NCBI RefSeq assembly: GCF_013167895.1
Contig: NZ_BLWC01000001.1
Coordinates: 3,534,001-3,598,000, forward strand
Source of the DNA: Streptomyces fulvorobeus
GTDB lineage: Bacteria; Actinomycetota; Actinomycetes; Streptomycetales; Streptomycetaceae
Direction of reading: 5' to 3'
DNA length: 64,000 nucleotides
Both the position numbers and the translations under genes were made by a program. Below, one piece after another: positions 39,384-61,811 of this stretch (the stretch's first letter is position 1; each line of letters starts with the position of its first letter). The notes below the pieces were generated by a model that saw nothing but the letters and a program-made list of their open reading frames with translations, searched no databases and was not told the origin of the DNA.

Positions 39384-39737
39384 GGGGACTTCCTGTTCTG
39401 TCGGTGACGTACGCGGGGCGGGTGCGCCGCCTCGTACCCCTGAGGCTTCCGCAGCGTAGCCATCCGTACACCGTGCGCTACCTCGCGCGCCCCGGTTCGT
39501 GCTCCGTAAGACCTTTCGCGCCGGGCGCGGGGCTGGTGGGACCTCCCCGCGTGCCAGGAGAGCGCACCCCCGCGCTCGCGGCATGCCGGGGGTGACATCA
39601 TCAGGGTCGAGGGTGTACCCGACGGGTACGACGTGCGAGTGGCCGCGATGGCGGTGCGAGACGTCCTGTCCGCGGACCGGGGCGAGGGGAAGAGGGAGAT
39701 ACTCACCTCTTTCCACTCTCAACTTATAGCGCACAGG

Positions 39738-39756
39738 GGGGCTTGCGGCAAGGCCC
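39738..39756 (+). promoter_or_regulatory. rifamycin-associated element (RAE) upstream of helR
   Basis: GGGGCTTGCGGCAAGGCCC is a 19-bp near-palindrome which, as I remember it, is identical to the published RAE consensus placed upstream of rifamycin-inducible resistance genes. It lies 61 bp before the helR GTG. An AT-rich TTATAG (39724-39729) just upstream is a possible -10 element. The 433-bp gap 39384-39816 holds no gene. Confidence 0.9.
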
Positions 39757-39816
39757 GGGTCATGCCTCACAATCGCTCGCTGAGGCCGGAACCTGCGGAA
39801 ATGGGAGTTTTACTCA

Positions 39817-41961
39817 GTGCGTACTTCGAACACCAGCGCCTTCGACCTTCCCGATCGTCTGGCCGCCAAGGCCGACCCGGCGCTCATCTCCGGCGACGAG
39901 CAGCACTTCGCGGCCATCGCGGAGAGCCTGGAGGAGTCGATCGCCGAACTCTCCGACCGCCTCGCCGTCGTCCGCAGGTCACCCGGCGGCGCGGGCCAGC
40001 AGGCGATGGACCGGGACCTGGAGGTCCACCGGCTGACCGCCCGCCTGCGCGCACTGCGCCGCTTCGGCCTCGACCTGTGCCTCGGGCACATGGTCGGCGA
40101 GGACGACTCCGAGCCCGTGTACGTCGGACGGCTCGGCCTCACGGACAGCGAGGGCCGCCGGCTGCTGCTCGACTGGCGTTCTCCCGCCGCCGAGCCGTTC
40201 TTCGGCGCCACCCACGCCAACCCGATGGGTCTGGCCAGCCGCCGCAGGTACCGCTGGACACGCGGCCGGATCAGCGACTACTGGGACGAGGTCTTCACCC
40301 CGGACGGTATGGCGGGGCGGGCCGCGCTCGACGACCAGTCCGCCTTCATCGCCAGCCTGGGCACCAACCGGTCCGAGCGGATGCGTGACGTGCTCGGCAC
40401 CATCCAGGCCGATCAGGACGCCATCATCCGCGCGAGCTCGCGCGGCGCTCTCGTCGTCGACGGCGGCCCGGGTACGGGGAAGACCGTCGTCGCCCTGCAC
40501 CGCTCCGCCTACCTCCTCTACTCCGACCCGCGCCTGGGTCACCGCAGGGGCGGCGTGCTGTTCGTCGGCCCCCACCAGCCGTACCTGGGATACGTCGCCG
40601 ACGTCCTGCCGAGCCTCGGCGAAGAGGGCGTGCAGACCTGCACGCTGCGCGACCTCGTCCCCGAGGGGGCGGAGGCGGCGGCCGAGACCGACCCGGACGT
40701 GGCCCGCCTGAAGTCGTCCGCCGACCTCGTGAAGGCGGTCGAGGCGGCCGTCAGGTTCTACGAGGAGCCGCCCACCACGGGCATGACCGTCACGACCCAC
40801 TGGTCCGACATCCGGCTGACCGCCGGGGACTGGGCCGTCGCGTTCGACGCGGCACCGGGCATCCCGCACAACGAGGCGCGCGACCAGATCTGGGAGGAAC
40901 TGCTCACGATCCTGGTCGACAAGCACGACGACGAGGACACGGCCGAGCCGCTGCGCAAGTCGCTCCACCAGAACAGGCAGCTGCTCGCGGTCTTCGACAA
41001 CGCGTGGCCGCTGCTCGAAGCGACCGACCTGGTCGGGGACCTGTGGACCGTACCCGCCTATCTGCGCAAGTGCGCCCCCTGGCTGAGCCGCGAGGACGTG
41101 ACGCGGCTCCAGCGGGAGGACGCCCACGCCTGGACGGTCTCCGACCTGCCGATCCTGGACGCGGCACGGCAGCGGCTCGGCGACCCGGCCGCGTCACGGC
41201 GTACGCGCAGGCACAAGGCGTCGGTCGCCGCCGAACGCGAGCAGATGACCAAGGTCATCGACGGCCTGATCGAAACCGACCAGGACGGTGAGGGCGCGCT
41301 GACGATGCTGCGCGGCCAGGACCTCAAAGAGACCCTGTTCGACGGGGCGGCCACCCTCGACATCGAACGGGACCTCCTCGCAGGACCGTTCGCGCACGTC
41401 GTCGTCGACGAGGCACAGGAACTGACCGACGCGGAGTGGCAGATGCTGCTGATCCGCTGCCCTTCGCGCAGTTTCACCATCGTCGGGGACCGTGCGCAGG
41501 CCCGGCACGGGTTCACCGAGTCGTGGCAGGAACGGCTGGAGCGGGTCGGGCTCGACCGGGTCAAGCTGGCCTCCCTGAGCATCAACTACCGGACGCCGGC
41601 CGAGATCATGGCGGAGGCGGAGCCGGTCATCCGGGCCGTGCTCCCGGACGCCAACGTGCCGACCTCCATCCGCAGCGGCGACCTCGCCGTCGTCCACGGT
41701 TCCGCCGCGGATCTGCCCGAGATCCTCGACACGTGGCTCGACGCCCACGCGGAGGGGGTCGCCTGCGTGATCGGCGATCCCACCTTCCGGCCGACGTCCC
41801 GCGTCCGCTCGCTGACGCCGTCCCTGTCGAAGGGCCTGGAGTTCGACCTCGTCGTCCTGGTCGACCCGGAGTCGTTCGGCGCGGGCATCGAGGGAGCGGT
41901 CGACCGCTATGTGGCGATGACCCGGGCGACCCAGCGACTCGTGATCCTCACGAGCTCCTGA
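39817..41961 (+). CDS. helR: HelR, RNA polymerase recycling ATPase (rifamycin resistance)
   Basis: 714 residues of a UvrD-like superfamily-1 motor of the HelD type. An N-terminal coiled-coil arm (EESIAELSDRLAVV, MDRDLEVHRLTARLRALRRF) precedes Walker A GGPGTGKT (216-223), motif II VVDEAQELTD, motif III IVGDRAQARHG and motif VI-like VAMTRATQRLVIL. HelR is reported to displace rifamycins from RNA polymerase and to be induced through the RAE. The RAE immediately upstream distinguishes it from the second HelD gene in this window. The start is GTG at 39817 after GGGAG. Confidence 0.92.
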   Translation: MRTSNTSAFDLPDRLAAKADPALISGDEQHFAAIAESLEESIAELSDRLAVVRRSPGGAGQQAMDRDLEVHRLTARLRALRRFGLDLCLGHMVGEDDSEPVYVGRLGLTDSEGRRLLLDWRSPAAEPFFGATHANPMGLASRRRYRWTRGRISDYWDEVFTPDGMAGRAALDDQSAFIASLGTNRSERMRDVLGTIQADQDAIIRASSRGALVVDGGPGTGKTVVALHRSAYLLYSDPRLGHRRGGVLFVGPHQPYLGYVADVLPSLGEEGVQTCTLRDLVPEGAEAAAETDPDVARLKSSADLVKAVEAAVRFYEEPPTTGMTVTTHWSDIRLTAGDWAVAFDAAPGIPHNEARDQIWEELLTILVDKHDDEDTAEPLRKSLHQNRQLLAVFDNAWPLLEATDLVGDLWTVPAYLRKCAPWLSREDVTRLQREDAHAWTVSDLPILDAARQRLGDPAASRRTRRHKASVAAEREQMTKVIDGLIETDQDGEGALTMLRGQDLKETLFDGAATLDIERDLLAGPFAHVVVDEAQELTDAEWQMLLIRCPSRSFTIVGDRAQARHGFTESWQERLERVGLDRVKLASLSINYRTPAEIMAEAEPVIRAVLPDANVPTSIRSGDLAVVHGSAADLPEILDTWLDAHAEGVACVIGDPTFRPTSRVRSLTPSLSKGLEFDLVVLVDPESFGAGIEGAVDRYVAMTRATQRLVILTSS

Positions 41962-43153: not shown

Positions 43154-43185
43154 TTACGGGGTGGTCCCTTCGTTCACTTACGGGC
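43148..43185 (-). repeat. 14-bp direct repeat at a stop/start junction
   Basis: CCCGTAAGTGAACG occurs at 43172-43185 and again at 43148-43161 (reverse strand). The first copy carries the TGA stop of the DUF1906 gene and the second carries the GTG start of the membrane-protein gene, so a small duplication created the junction. Confidence 0.8.
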
Positions 43186-45588
43186 CGCGCGGCTCTTTGC
43201 GGCCTTGAGGTACTTCGCGTGGTTCGTCTCGTAGGTGGCGCGCAGCCTCTGCTCGGTGCCGGTGCGAGCCAGCAGTACATCGACGAAACCCTGTTCGAAA
43301 GGCTCCAGTTCGTCGTATCCGAGCATGGCCGGGAGCGTCTTGATCCCGCCCCGGACCGTCACCAGGCCGACCTGCGCGGCCAGGACTTCCTTGTCGTCAG
43401 CCGCGGTGAGAATATTGTGTGCCAGGAACTTGGCGTCCGTGGCATTGCCGCTGAAGCGCCCGTTCCAGTAACGGCTGAATCGCGTCAGACCGCCGCCTCC
43501 GTTGTAGAGGTCGCGGACGGCCTGGACGATCGTCTTGCCGTCGCGTACTGCCTTGGCCAGCAGCCACGCGTCGGCATCCTCGATCAGGTCGTTGTACCCG
43601 AAGCTCGACGCGACTCCGACCTTGGCCATCTTCAGCTGTACGAAGTTGCGGCCGTCGGGGTACTGGTCGTCGGCGTGGCGCCAGTCGGCATAGAGGGTGA
43701 GCAGGTCACCGCCCCAGCCGGCGACGTCGCCCTCGTTCACCGAACGCGGGTTGCTCGGCATCCAGGCGACGAAGTGCCCGTTGGCGGAAGCCATCAGGTG
43801 CTCGGCGCTCAGCTCGTAGGCGGTGTACGGGTCGACGAAGTCGGCCATGACCGACATGCCTTGCCGGTTGGCGTAGTCGACGAACGCCGCGTCGTACGAG
43901 CCGATCAGGAAGTCCCAGTCGCCGCCGCCGTACGCCTTGTGCCGGATGTACTCCATCACCAGCTGGTTCGGGTTGCGGTCGCCGGTATAGGCGACCGCGA
44001 TGTCGTACAGGCGCTGGACGTAGTCGATGAAGGCGTCCGCCGGACCGGATGGCTTGTTCACACTGCTCTGGCCGAGGTCGACTCCCGAGATCACGTCGCG
44101 ATCGAGATCGAAGACGTCCGACCCGTTGGTGACCTTGAATTCCTTGATCTGGTTGAACGACCAGTTGGCCGGGATCGGGAAGCCCAGGTTGCCGGAGAAA
44201 CCCCAGGACATACCCGAGACGAACGAGAAGCGGGCTCCGGTCTGCCGGCTGACCACGGTGCAGACGTTCCGCGAACCGTAGACACCGTGCACATAGCGCT
44301 TGCCGTTGTACGCGAGCCCAGCGGCCACACCGTGGAAGTACGGCACGATCGCCGCGTCGATCTCCTCGCGGGTGGCGTCGTAGTCCACCGCGAAGTAGAT
44401 GACGGTGCCACGGTTGAATCCATAGCCCGCGGCCAGCTTGTGGGCGTTGAGAGCGTGCTGATAGCCCTGGCTGTAAGTGAAGTCGGCAAGCTCGCGGGCG
44501 TTGTCCTGGTAGATCGGGAACACCTTCAGCCCGTTGCTGAAGATCGTGTTCAGCTCGCCCGGCTTGATCTCCTTGTCCAGGGTGGAGCCCGGCGGGTCGA
44601 AGATGTAACGGCCCACGATCTCGTACTTGTTGTTCCGCAGCCACTGCGCCCGGGACGCGGTGATCTCGAACCGGGTGTCGGAGCCCGTGGCGGGACGGTC
44701 CGGGTCACCCATCGAGACCAGGAGCTGCGCCCACGTCTGGTAGTCGGAGCGACCGGTGACCGTGAGCTTGGAGAACGCCTGGAAGATCTCGACCCACTCG
44801 CGCAGCTTGGAGTCGTAGCTGCTGCGCCAGGTGGTGGGCGTGCCGCCCTCGCTGGTGCCGCTCGGGACCGGGGAGTTGAACACGCACGCGGCGGAGAAGA
44901 GTTCGACCCAGAGGCCGGAGCTTCCCTCACCGAAGTTCTTGCCCTGCAGCCCGGTCTGGGTAGCAGGTCCGAAGTTGCCGGTGGGGGAGGCGATGCCGAG
45001 TTCGTACTGAATGGCGATCATCAGCGCCTTCTGCACGTCACGGGAGTAGATCCCGTCGCAGGGGCCGATGCTGTAGGCCGACTTGGTCCAGTAACGACTG
45101 TTCAGCCAACGCTGGATCGAACGGACCTCGTCCGTGCCGCCGGGGACCTTGATGTAGGCGTCCATGTTCAGGATGCACTTGAAGATCTTCGGCGTGGTGA
45201 CGCCGCCGGCGGTGCCGGTGCCGCCGTCGGGCAGACCCATGTCGATGAGGAGGGCCTTGACCGCCTCGGTGGTCACGGCGCCGTAGCCGCCGTAGTCGTT
45301 GGCTCCCCAGTAGCCCTTGCAGAACAGGCCGTGCTGGATGATGCGGACGATGTTCGCGTTCTTGTTCCAGCCGAAGCCGATGTCGCCCAGGGCCTGGAGC
45401 TTCGTCATGGTGGTGGGACCGAAGCTGGCCACCACCGGGCTGATGCCCAGTTCGTGCTGAAGGCCCATGACAAGGGCGTTCATGGTGGACCAACTGGTGC
45501 GGCCGTCCTCGGAACAGCGTGTGTAACCGGAGACGCCGCCGTAGGTTGCGTTGACCCACTTCTGAGCGTCGAGGACCTTGTCGTCCAA
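43174..45588 (-). CDS. 804-residue DUF1906 (GH25-like) protein with peptidoglycan-binding-like repeats
   Basis: The start is TTG at 45588, set by GGAAAGG 8 nt upstream. The N-terminal 260 residues contain two PGB-like units (VLDAQKWVNATYGGVSGYTRC and VRSIQRWLNSRYWTKSAYSIGPCDGIYSRDVQKALMIAIQYELGI). The middle holds a DUF1906/Rv2525c glycoside-hydrolase-like barrel (IVGRYIFDPPG, IYFAVDYDATREEIDAAI, WSFNQIKEF, DLDRDVISG). The last 280 residues begin PADAFIDYVQRLYDIAV and look like a further globular domain of unknown type. No signal peptide is visible although such domains act on cell wall; this is odd. Confidence 0.82.
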   Translation of the reverse strand: MDDKVLDAQKWVNATYGGVSGYTRCSEDGRTSWSTMNALVMGLQHELGISPVVASFGPTTMTKLQALGDIGFGWNKNANIVRIIQHGLFCKGYWGANDYGGYGAVTTEAVKALLIDMGLPDGGTGTAGGVTTPKIFKCILNMDAYIKVPGGTDEVRSIQRWLNSRYWTKSAYSIGPCDGIYSRDVQKALMIAIQYELGIASPTGNFGPATQTGLQGKNFGEGSSGLWVELFSAACVFNSPVPSGTSEGGTPTTWRSSYDSKLREWVEIFQAFSKLTVTGRSDYQTWAQLLVSMGDPDRPATGSDTRFEITASRAQWLRNNKYEIVGRYIFDPPGSTLDKEIKPGELNTIFSNGLKVFPIYQDNARELADFTYSQGYQHALNAHKLAAGYGFNRGTVIYFAVDYDATREEIDAAIVPYFHGVAAGLAYNGKRYVHGVYGSRNVCTVVSRQTGARFSFVSGMSWGFSGNLGFPIPANWSFNQIKEFKVTNGSDVFDLDRDVISGVDLGQSSVNKPSGPADAFIDYVQRLYDIAVAYTGDRNPNQLVMEYIRHKAYGGGDWDFLIGSYDAAFVDYANRQGMSVMADFVDPYTAYELSAEHLMASANGHFVAWMPSNPRSVNEGDVAGWGGDLLTLYADWRHADDQYPDGRNFVQLKMAKVGVASSFGYNDLIEDADAWLLAKAVRDGKTIVQAVRDLYNGGGGLTRFSRYWNGRFSGNATDAKFLAHNILTAADDKEVLAAQVGLVTVRGGIKTLPAMLGYDELEPFEQGFVDVLLARTGTEQRLRATYETNHAKYLKAAKSRAARK

Positions 45589-45689
45589 CGTCCGACCTTT
45601 CCGTACGGGAGTGGCACCGAGCCTCGGTGCTGCGTCGCGATCGCGGCACGCCGAAGGCGTGGTGCTGTGACGTCGACGGTACGTCCCGG

Positions 45690-45925
45690 AACTCTTCGCT
45701 CGCTCTTGGCTGGTAGGCACGGCAGACGGCTCGCGCGGACGTCTCCGTCTGCAACAGGCCGGGGATGAGTAGAGCGGTGCGTACTCCTTGATGAACGAGC
45801 CGCTGACGAACAGCGGGGCACCGAGCTCGTCCTGCGAGAGGCCCGCCTGCTCGCGGCTGTGACGGAGCTCTGCGCCGAGGAGCGCGCGGGGTGAGGAGGG
45901 GGGCGAGCTTCCGGGGACCTGGCAT
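45690..45925 (-). pseudogene. decayed XRE/DUF5753-type regulator
   Basis: The reverse strand holds the N-terminal HTH of a Scr1/DUF5753-type regulator (SPRALLGAELRHSREQAGLSQDELG, then PLFVSGSFI). It jumps directly to the start of the DUF5753 domain, KEYAPL, and after a frame change to LLIPGLLQTETSARAVCRAYQPRASEE, where it stops resembling the family. The recognition part of the HTH domain and most of DUF5753 (normally about 280 residues in total) are missing. This is an internal deletion plus frame shift in a real gene, unlike the single-base frameshifts elsewhere in the window. Confidence 0.78.
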
Positions 45926-46039
45926 GGCAACTCCCTGTGACACACGTGCGGTTGTCGGGACAGCGCCTCTTCCAGGCCAGCCGCGCGTTGGACACTCCGG
46001 GTAGGCATTCTCATCACTCAGGGTGGAAGGTGGAACGGC

Positions 46040-59425: not shown

Positions 59426-61519
59426 TCACGCCAGAGCCTCCGGCAGCGGGGCCGCGTGCAGCACGATCAGACCGGAGACCGCCCGGGTCAGCGCCACGTA
59501 CAGGCGGCGCAGGCCCGTGCGTTCGTCCGGTTCGCCGTCGACCACGGCCGCCGGGTCGTCCAGCACCACGTAGTCGTACTCCAGACCCTTCGCCAGCGAG
59601 GCCGGGACCAGCGTCAGACGGGACTCGGCGGTCGTCTCGTCACCGGGTGAGAGGTACGCGTGGCCCGCCGCCTCCAGGGCCGCGGCGAGCGCCGGGACCC
59701 GGGCGTCGGCGGCGATCAGGCCGATCGACCCCTCGTGGGCCAGCGACTCCTCGCAGGCCGCGACCACCGCGGCGGCCAGCCCGGCCGGGTCCGCCACCTG
59801 CCGTACCGCCATGGAGCCCGGCGACTCACGCACCGACTCCACCGGGGCCAGGCCCGGCGAGATCGCGGGCAGCAGCCGCGAGGCGTACGCGATCACCTCG
59901 CGGGGCACACGGAAGCCCGCGGTCAACTCCTCGACCAGGGCGTCCGGCTTGCCCAGGTGGAACAGCGCCTGCTCCCAGCTCTCCGTCGACCACGGTGTCG
60001 TGCCCTGCGCGAGGTCGCCGAGCACCGTAGCCGAACCGGTCGAGCAGCGGCGGCCCACCGCCCGGTACTGCATCGGTGACAGATCCTGCGCCTCGTCGAT
60101 GACGACATGGCCGAGCGAGTGCGTACGGGCCACCAGGTCACTCGCCTCGTCGATAAGCACCGCGTCCGCCGGCGACCACTTCGCCGACTTCACGCCGCGC
60201 GGCGGCCTGGACCAGACAATCCTCTTCTGCTCCTCGTCGGTGAGGAGGCCGTCCGCGTGCGCGGCGAGGAACTCCGGGTCGGAGAGGAGCCGCAGCACCA
60301 GTCTCGCGGGGTCGACGGCGGGCCAGCACGCCTTGACGGCCGCCTTCACCGCGGGGGTGCGGGCCACCGCGTTCTGCACCCGGTCGTCGGGAGCCTCGCC
60401 CGCCTCCTCCATCCGGGTCAGGACGCAGTGTGCGATGCGCTGCGGGAGTGCCTCGTGGGCGGCGCCGTAGCGGATGTCGCGGGCCAGCAACTCGTCGACG
60501 ATCTCCGTCAGTTCGTGCACGGGCACCCGCCAGCGGCGCGAACCGCGCACCACCATGACCGGCTCGGCCGGCGGCGACACGTGCGAACGGATCGCCCGTC
60601 GCAGGACCTCCGCCATCCTGGCGTCGCCCTTGACCACGGCGGCCGGGGCGTCGTCCGTGCCACGCACCTCGACGTGCGCCGTCACCAGGTCGTCGACGGT
60701 GGCCTGCTTCACCTCCAGCTCACCCAGGGCGGGCAGCACCTGCTCGATGTAGTGGAGGAAGGACCGGTTCGGCCCGATCACCAGGGTCCCGGTGCGGGCC
60801 AGCCGCTCGCGGTGCGCGTACAGCAGGTAGGCGACCCGGTGCAGGCCGACCGCGGTCTTCCCGGTGCCGGGCCCTCCCTGCACACACACCGTCCCGCCGA
60901 GCCCGCCGCGTACGATCTCGTCCTGCTCGGGCTGGATCGTGGCCACGATGTCGCGCATCGGGCCGACGCGGGGCCGCTCGATCTCCGCCTGGAGGAGCCT
61001 GCTGGTCCGCGCGGGCTCGGCCGGGCCGGTGAGGTGTTCGTCCTCGTACGCGGTCAGCTCGCCGCCCGTGTAACCGAACCGTCGCCGCCGGCCCACGTCC
61101 TGCGGGTCCTTCCTGGACGCCCGGTAGAACGGCTGGGAGACGGGCGCGCGCCAGTCGATGACCATCGGATCGCCGTGGGCGTCATGGACGTGGCGGCGCC
61201 CGATGTAGAACCGCTCGCCCCCGGCACCCTCCGCCCGCTCCGCACCGACCGGGTGCAGATAGTCGAGGCGTCCGAAGAACAGCGGGGTGTGGGAGAGGTC
61301 TGCGAGTGCCTTGACGCGGTCGTCCATCTGCGCCTGGAGCACGACGGAGTTGACCCAGTTCGCGGTGACGTCGCGGAGGTCGAGGGCCTGCACGTCCTCA
61401 CGCATCGCGCGGAGCGCGGCACGGGAGGCGGTCAGACGGGCGCGTTCGCGTGTCAGGGGGTCCGGGGAGCCGATCGGCCCGGTGGTGGGGGTGTCGCTCT
61501 CTGCTTCGTGCGCGGGCAC
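59426..61519 (-). CDS. helD: HelD-family RNA polymerase-recycling ATPase (second copy)
   Basis: 697 residues. The start is GTG at 61519 because GGAGG lies 7 nt upstream. An N-terminal arm precedes Walker A GGPGTGKT (215-222). Motif II is VVIDEAQDLSPMQYRAVGRR, motif III LGDLAQGTTPW, and the C-terminal helicase motifs are PASLAKGLEYDYVVLDDP and RRLYVALTRAVSGLIVLH. Unlike HelR it has no RAE upstream. HelD proteins remove stalled RNA polymerase from DNA and recycle it. It resembles general HelD more than HelR. Confidence 0.9.
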   Translation of the reverse strand: MPAHEAESDTPTTGPIGSPDPLTRERARLTASRAALRAMREDVQALDLRDVTANWVNSVVLQAQMDDRVKALADLSHTPLFFGRLDYLHPVGAERAEGAGGERFYIGRRHVHDAHGDPMVIDWRAPVSQPFYRASRKDPQDVGRRRRFGYTGGELTAYEDEHLTGPAEPARTSRLLQAEIERPRVGPMRDIVATIQPEQDEIVRGGLGGTVCVQGGPGTGKTAVGLHRVAYLLYAHRERLARTGTLVIGPNRSFLHYIEQVLPALGELEVKQATVDDLVTAHVEVRGTDDAPAAVVKGDARMAEVLRRAIRSHVSPPAEPVMVVRGSRRWRVPVHELTEIVDELLARDIRYGAAHEALPQRIAHCVLTRMEEAGEAPDDRVQNAVARTPAVKAAVKACWPAVDPARLVLRLLSDPEFLAAHADGLLTDEEQKRIVWSRPPRGVKSAKWSPADAVLIDEASDLVARTHSLGHVVIDEAQDLSPMQYRAVGRRCSTGSATVLGDLAQGTTPWSTESWEQALFHLGKPDALVEELTAGFRVPREVIAYASRLLPAISPGLAPVESVRESPGSMAVRQVADPAGLAAAVVAACEESLAHEGSIGLIAADARVPALAAALEAAGHAYLSPGDETTAESRLTLVPASLAKGLEYDYVVLDDPAAVVDGEPDERTGLRRLYVALTRAVSGLIVLHAAPLPEALA

Positions 61520-61811
61520 GGTGTCGCCTCCGACTTTCAACGCGTGGAAGGCGGACCACGGCCTCCGGTACGACGGGAGGGCGACGTGATCCGCTCAGGG
61601 ACGTTCGCGCGGGTGCGGGCCGGTTTCCGTCCGGCCGGCGGCGCTCCCCCGGCTGCCGGCGGAGGGCCGGTACCACGGTGCGGGAGGCGGGCAGACCGGC
61701 GATTGTATCCACGGCGGCCCGCCCGGTCGAACGGGAAAGGGCGCGCCCCGCCGCGCCGGAACGGCGGTCACGCCCGCGGCCCGGTGCCCCACCGGGCCGG
61801 ACAGGAGCACC

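Follow-up and report, generated by a model that had tools for sequence, protein, structure and literature searches.

Predicted two-way promoter anatomy around the rifamycin-associated element ahead of helR in Streptomyces fulvorobeus

Many actinobacteria, mycobacteria included, carry the rifamycin-associated element (RAE) ahead of genes for rifamycin resistance, and in January 2026 its mechanism and regulator were described as still to be elucidated (PMC12802891). How a palindrome of 19 bp could couple the arrival of the drug to the expression of a resistance gene is the question raised by the locus studied here, a RAE followed by helR in Streptomyces fulvorobeus. The window, i.e., the whole 64,000-nucleotide stretch that was analysed (G000:C1:3534001-3598000), belongs to a genome of 6.63 Mb (G000), and the coordinates of its relevant features are given in Table 1.

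The original prediction placed a RAE 61 bp directly before an intact helR. The exact 19-mer is the only place in the 64-kb window matching GGGGCTTGCGGCAAGGCCC at up to 3 mismatches, its own reverse strand aside, while 100 dinucleotide shuffles of the window gave a mean of 0.03 matches at this tolerance. The gap to the GTG start at 39817 is 60 nt, which corrects the predicted distance by one, and the frame is open to 41961. The intactness of helR was borne out by a full-length profile match, as its protein scored 1278.8 bits with the NCBIfam motor_HelR model (cut-off 750) and covered positions 1-706 of the 706 in the profile. Its homology with M. smegmatis HelD (6yxu_H) extends over query residues 28-711 (phmmer, E 9.4e-104), including the expected PCh-loop region, but the HelR model fits it far better than the M. 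smegmatis HelD model, against which it scored 404.5 bits, below the cut-off of 1051. The protein aligns through M. smegmatis HelD 448-517, where we take the PCh loop to lie (residues ~449-517), so that the loop segment is probably present, as in class II HelD/HelR proteins. The PCh loop has been described as the part displacing rifampicin (PMC8655204, PMC11464796).

Table 1. Positions in the window of the RAE, the predicted promoter elements around it and the two HelD-type genes
Feature	Position	Strand	Basis
Predicted start (GG 39714/39713) and hairpin of the putative antisense RNA	39687..39714	-	fold, alignment
Antisense -10-like hexamer TAAGTT	39721..39726	-	TANNNT at offset 11, 168/172 sites
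RAE 19-mer	39738..39756	+	exact match to GGGGCTTGCGGCAAGGCCC
Sense -35-like hexamer TTGCGG, inside the RAE	39743..39748	+	sequence; 19 nt to the sense -10-like hexamer
Antisense -35-like hexamer TTGCCG, overlaps the sense -35-like hexamer	39746..39751	-	sequence; 19 nt to the antisense -10-like hexamer
Sense -10-like hexamer CACAAT, gene-directed	39768..39773	+	NANNNT at offset 11, 168/172 sites
Leader stretch AACCTGCGGAAATGGGAG, ending in a possible ribosome-binding site	39790..39807	+	alignment profiles, sequence
helR, 714 aa, GTG start	39817..41961	+	NCBIfam NF041254 (motor_HelR)
helR segment opposite M. smegmatis HelD ~449-507, expected site of the PCh loop	41161..41337 (approximate)	+	alignment
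Second HelD-type gene, no RAE, without the PCh-loop segment	59426..61540	-	profile, RAE scan, alignment

The genome contains two exact RAEs, one before helR and one at C1:6090605-6090623 on the minus strand, ahead of a rox frame (L006:2522-3994, ~6.09 Mb) that scored 855.7 bits against rif_monoox (cut-off 800). A search for the RAE before rifamycin-resistance genes elsewhere in the genome had been proposed as a check, and it was answered by this one exact site ahead of rox, the gene for rifampin monooxygenase. Three extra places in the genome at 3 mismatches were discarded as chance level, the reversed control pattern giving 26 matches. Because the only exact RAEs of the genome precede helR and rox, the pair also reported for Streptomyces venezuelae (PMC10719064), the RAE regulon of the strain most likely comprises two genes, one to destroy the drug and one to clear the blocked polymerase. 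The second RAE strengthens the prediction of a RAE-controlled helR with rifamycin-inducible tolerance, which is supported at the level of sequence, and the locus can soundly be taken as an intact rifamycin-response cassette, an ordinary member of the known RAE regulon. The two leaders are alike as well, AACCTGCGGAAATGGGAG being nearly identical in the rox leader of the same genome (L002); in the alignment profiles this conserved stretch is strongest in the rph group. Stretches like ACCTGCGGAAATGG recur in the leaders of many sites before helR, rox, rph and rgt, and show a likeness to the RAE core (TGCGG.AA).

The original prediction further assigned the window one dedicated and one general RNA polymerase motor, the latter encoded by a second HelD-type gene without a RAE. 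No second RAE for the gene at 59426-61540 was found anywhere in the window at up to 3 mismatches, in agreement with that prediction. Its protein is HelD-like and falls under the cut-off of all four HelD/HelR models that it matched, with 302.0 bits against HelR (NF041254, cut-off 750). Its alignment ends at M. smegmatis HelD 448 and restarts at 518; since residues 449-517 are skipped, ejection of rifampicin by a PCh loop is unlikely for this protein as far as its sequence tells. The role of a general recycling motor found no support, and a further long frame of HelD-like type, if not several, is present in the genome (G000:C1:359516-361615, 414.3 bits). HelR homologues also occur on 30 plasmid records (e.g. 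NZ_CP108509.1 and NZ_CP108139.1), 22 of them from Streptomyces, and in 29 the match extends over at least 80% of the query. Near helR, a frame of 947 aa on the minus strand (43174-46017) combines a peptidoglycan-binding domain with a glycoside-hydrolase-like domain that is Rv2525c-like.

Among 396 genomes sampled across the phylum, 41 carry the RAE at up to 1 mismatch, in 58 places versus 6 for the reversed pattern, and a scan of titled genomes added at least 119 RAE stretches. From both sets 179 sites among the matches listed were examined, and 173 of them precede helR (70), rox (51), rph (19), rgt (18), arr (14) or a gene for an MFS transporter (1). Gene labels were given by tblastn with one or two references per family and a projected start between -60 and 700 nt from the RAE, and were checked against profiles for one or a few representatives per family, of which the Rgt representative (465.6 bits, cut-off 800) and a truncated Rph representative (820.7, cut-off 999) stayed below. 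Only four of the eight titled arr sites are mycobacterial. The top rifampicin-induced genes of M. smegmatis include those for a Rox homologue, a HelD helicase and Arr (PMC6529629), and these functions occur behind the RAE in our survey too. At L194 and L197 one RAE is followed by rgt and then helR, which apparently form an operon. That the palindrome arose by chance, or that the gene is not HelR, is contradicted by these 173 sites and the 58 places versus 6, as well as by the 0.03 matches expected and the 1278.8 bits reached in the window, and its probability is negligible.

A gap-free alignment of the 173 sites anchored on the RAE revealed conservation reaching well past 19 bp, the modules before different genes being similar over ~100 bp. 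Site L117, which is cut by a contig edge, was left out of the promoter counts. A -10-like hexamer lies exactly 11 bp outside each RAE edge, one per strand, at 167 of the 172 listed sites (sense NANNNT at 168, antisense TANNNT at 168). At the other offsets between 0 and 29, NANNNT occurs in 0-9% of sites, with the exception of 16% and 25% at sense offsets 13 and 14 and 59% at antisense offset 17, and TANNNT in at most 1% on either strand. The antisense hexamer has T1 in 98%, A2 in 98% and T6 in 99%, with base 3 nearly free. The sense hexamer has A at base 2 (99%) and T at base 6 (98%), and is the weaker -10 by sigma-A rules because its base 1 is C in 90% and T in 1%. The RAE core CTTGCSGCAAG offers TTGCSG to each strand with a spacer of 19 nt both ways. 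This anatomy suggests that the RAE serves two promoters, arranged back to back, as a common -35 core, although a spacer of 19 nt is long for sigma-A. The original prediction took the RAE as a 19-bp element, but the conserved unit spans at least 53 bp and includes a promoter-like element on each strand.

Five sites deviate from the -10 pair: L036 has a mismatch in the RAE core, L070 and L122 look like one-base shifts, and L146 and L159 are the two Alphaproteobacteria of the 172-site set. Four RAE 19-mers (L059, L088, L114, L119) were taken as chance occurrences, having neither a resistance gene downstream nor, in all four cases, the -10 pair; one lone NANNNT is present at L119. L088 adjoins an rph-like frame and L119 lies within a weak MFS match, neither gene being downstream of the motif. 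Two edge-of-locus sites outside the gene classes, L099 and L164, have the full module. P1 of M. smegmatis, a sense promoter mapped upstream of the RAE, has no conserved counterpart in the RAE-site alignment and so speaks against the two-way reading. TATAGC (39725-39730) was rejected as a -10 of a sense promoter, as its base 6 (antisense offset 8) is C rather than T in 97% of sites and the 99% fixed base at offset 17 would go unexplained. We do not favour an origin of the palindrome in RNA pairing either, because the two commonest RAE forms (47 and 45 matches) mispair between positions 4 and 16.

A composite pattern requiring both -10s and the 11-bp core, with the RAE arms left free, matched in 188 of 393 genomes of the class (54 of 122 genera), a set that partly overlaps the 396-genome sample and in which some matches are not RAEs (G555:C758 lacks both arms), while the control columns were 0 throughout. 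The window contains one match (39721-39773). Selection by protein family alone yielded the best 30 of 41 HelR loci over the cut-off in 118 genomes, the window and some already sampled genomes among them. A RAE at up to 2 mismatches lies within 700 bp upstream in 25 of the 30, all 25 with both -10s, and two more have rgt between RAE and helR; no RAE was found in reach of helR at L195, L196 and L200. Each of the arms GGG and CCC is perfect in 23 of these 25 loci. The 19-bp dyad, with arms conserved even where they were not selected for, speaks for another explanation, in which the RAE is the operator of a dimeric regulator that senses rifamycin or the stalled polymerase, sits over both -35s and activates or frees the gene promoter, the antisense promoter being secondary or serving the geometry of the regulator. 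An unknown factor is assumed, or at least allowed for, in both texts on the mechanism (PMC12802891, PMC10719064). Such an operator does not explain why 168 of 172 sites keep a canonical antisense -10 at constant spacing.

The predicted antisense RNA bears on this choice. If transcription starts 7 nt past the antisense -10, the RNA would begin with GG, at offset 24 (96%) and offset 25 (94%), across the 172 listed sites. A 5' stem of at least 7 pairs is predicted for this RNA at 75 of 172 sites, whereas 20 shuffles gave a mean of 13 and a maximum of 19; as pair counts from folded structures lean towards pairing, it is this shuffle control that carries the hairpin claim. The same test succeeded at 2 of 173 sites on the sense side, which folds no better than shuffles. 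A hairpin with U-tract follows at 58 of 172 listed sites compared with 0-3 in ten shuffles, and under a strict terminator test the antisense RNA qualifies at 19 of the 50 rox sites, 16 of the 70 helR sites, 13 of the 19 rph sites, 8 of the 18 rgt sites, a single arr site among 14 and the sole MFS site. We do not favour the hairpin as a terminator of the upstream gene, the U-rich tract being on the antisense strand. The two copies of this genome differ: the one before rox passed the strict test (z -4.41) and has a clean antisense hairpin with a U-rich tail, whereas the one before helR (-12.3 kcal/mol, z -1.47) has an imperfect stem without U-tract and failed. Since the window copy fails the terminator test, as do most helR sites, we give slightly less weight to the two-promoter reading. 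The self-terminating antisense RNA at 58 sites is likewise left unexplained by an operator.

A simpler alternative would have a single gene promoter over the RAE, the antisense -10 and the hairpin being kept for insulation or through shared descent of the cassette. The likeness of the modules over ~100 bp before different genes makes common descent likely in part, and the 172 sites, being related by descent, are not 172 independent tests. However, the constraint is position-specific, with antisense bases 1, 2 and 6 fixed at 98-99% next to a nearly free base 3, and the U-tract is on the antisense side while the sense side folds like shuffles. We consider this alternative improbable.

RAE 19-mers also stand before arr, rox-like or rph genes outside Actinobacteria at L182 and L220 (Alphaproteobacteria), L183 and L184 (Xanthomonadaceae MAG), L185-L187 (Chloroflexi MAGs) and L188 (Mesorhizobium); the hosts are named as in the record titles, the taxonomy of the MAGs being checked by one neighbour gene of L184, and the Mesorhizobium locus is a 7-kb contig. 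In the class of the alphaproteobacterium Aerophototrophica crusticola, 2 of 289 genomes have the RAE, its own included, both before arr. The Xanthomonadaceae 'rox' is closer to PRK06834 than to rif_monoox. Both -10s are kept at L184 (arr) and the three Chloroflexi loci (rph, rox), and the arr site of the Xanthomonadaceae-titled MAG continues with a hairpin and UUUUUU (z -1.66); L182, L220, L183 and L188 are without the exact pair. If the RAE were an operator, an actinobacterial regulator would have had to travel into the Xanthomonadaceae- and Chloroflexi-titled genomes together with the RAE and both -10s, an objection eased by L183 from a Xanthomonadaceae MAG and the alphaproteobacterial L146 and L159, where the exact -10 pair is missing. 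On balance, we regard the operator as a possible but tentative explanation. Within the actinobacteria, Actinoplanes aureus (L080) has a full RAE module (116-134) 94 bp ahead of a gene for an MFS transporter (229-1794), possibly a further kind of RAE-controlled defence; the label is a self-match, the transporter being confirmed as MFS yet under every NCBIfam cut-off, and its cluster partner at L130 adjoins a site labelled helR.

The sequences show the motif, the genes behind it, the two -10-like elements at their constant spacing, and the hairpin with its U-tract; from these we infer that both promoters are active and in competition, and that polymerase with bound drug triggers the switch. We hypothesize, with confidence close to evenly balanced, that the RAE is the shared -35 of two mutually exclusive sigma-A-type promoters and that the drug-disabled polymerase flips initiation to the gene. 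The RAE promoter would drive helR from a gene-directed start with a poor -10 (CACAAT), and the promoter with the canonical TANNNT would read away from the gene into an RNA that is predicted to be its own terminator at about one third of sites. Overlapping on one -35, the divergent promoters could not be occupied together, and in the absence of the drug the antisense promoter would take most polymerases and keep the gene quiet. For a better promoter that makes a self-terminating RNA, the simplest use would be to hold polymerase off the gene promoter. Rifamycin would disable the polymerase at the busier promoter, initiation would shift to the gene, and the HelR made could then clear drug-bound polymerase.

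Since steric overlap abolished induction in B. subtilis, a drug-arrested polymerase would have to quit the antisense promoter quickly. Actinobacterial open complexes are unstable, and our guess is that this instability would allow it. The conserved palindrome arms, which two -35s do not need, leave room for a RAE-reading protein, so a mixed mechanism that combines such a protein with the promoters is possible. It seems rather doubtful that the RAE has no separate regulator at all, with RNA polymerase as the sensor and the antisense promoter as a decoy, yielding a self-terminating RNA of ~35 nt at many sites, until rifamycin flips initiation.

The predicted two-way anatomy around the RAE is what our sequence comparison appears to add, the motif and the pairing of helR with rox being already known. 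In the literature searched, which included few subscription papers and neither preprints nor the founding RAE/HelR papers, no description of an antisense or divergent RAE promoter was found. A conserved antisense promoter on a shared -35, often with a self-terminating RNA, would make RAE sensing directly testable and would join the RAE to the interfering-promoter sensors of Bacillus helD and mycobacterial rpoBC.

The RAE system of S. venezuelae shares with this genome the 19-bp motif and both genes, helR and rox, and the P2 promoter of M. smegmatis is directed to the gene with a -35 overlapping the RAE (PMC10719064), as in the window. The RAE systems described in S. venezuelae, M. abscessus and M. 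smegmatis have been presented as a 19-bp palindrome with two sense promoters, whereas an antisense promoter is predicted here too; an antisense promoter sharing the -35 and a self-terminating antisense RNA are unmentioned in the RAE passages of PMC10719064. In rpoBC of M. smegmatis, low rifampicin shifts the balance of an interfering promoter pair (Zhu et al. 2018, via PMC10719064); in that account both promoters read towards the genes and no RAE is mentioned, while the RAE pair is divergent. The closest likeness in kind is with B. subtilis helD and pps, where opposing promoters sense rifampicin: low drug arrests polymerase at the busier antisense promoter, dominant there without the drug, and the sense promoter in front of HelD or the rifampicin-modifying enzyme fires (PMC12802891). 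The B. subtilis promoters are convergent and 39 bp apart, whereas those predicted for the window have paired -10s pointing apart, unlike the two spaced convergent promoters of that alarm, share a -35 and are accompanied by a terminator at many RAE sites. Because moving the B. subtilis promoters into steric conflict abolished induction (PMC12802891), the exact mechanism is not transferable to the RAE. If RNA polymerase itself is the sensor, Actinobacteria and Bacillus would each have arrived independently at the same kind of alarm for the same functions, HelD and an enzyme that modifies rifampicin, using opposing promoters in different arrangements.
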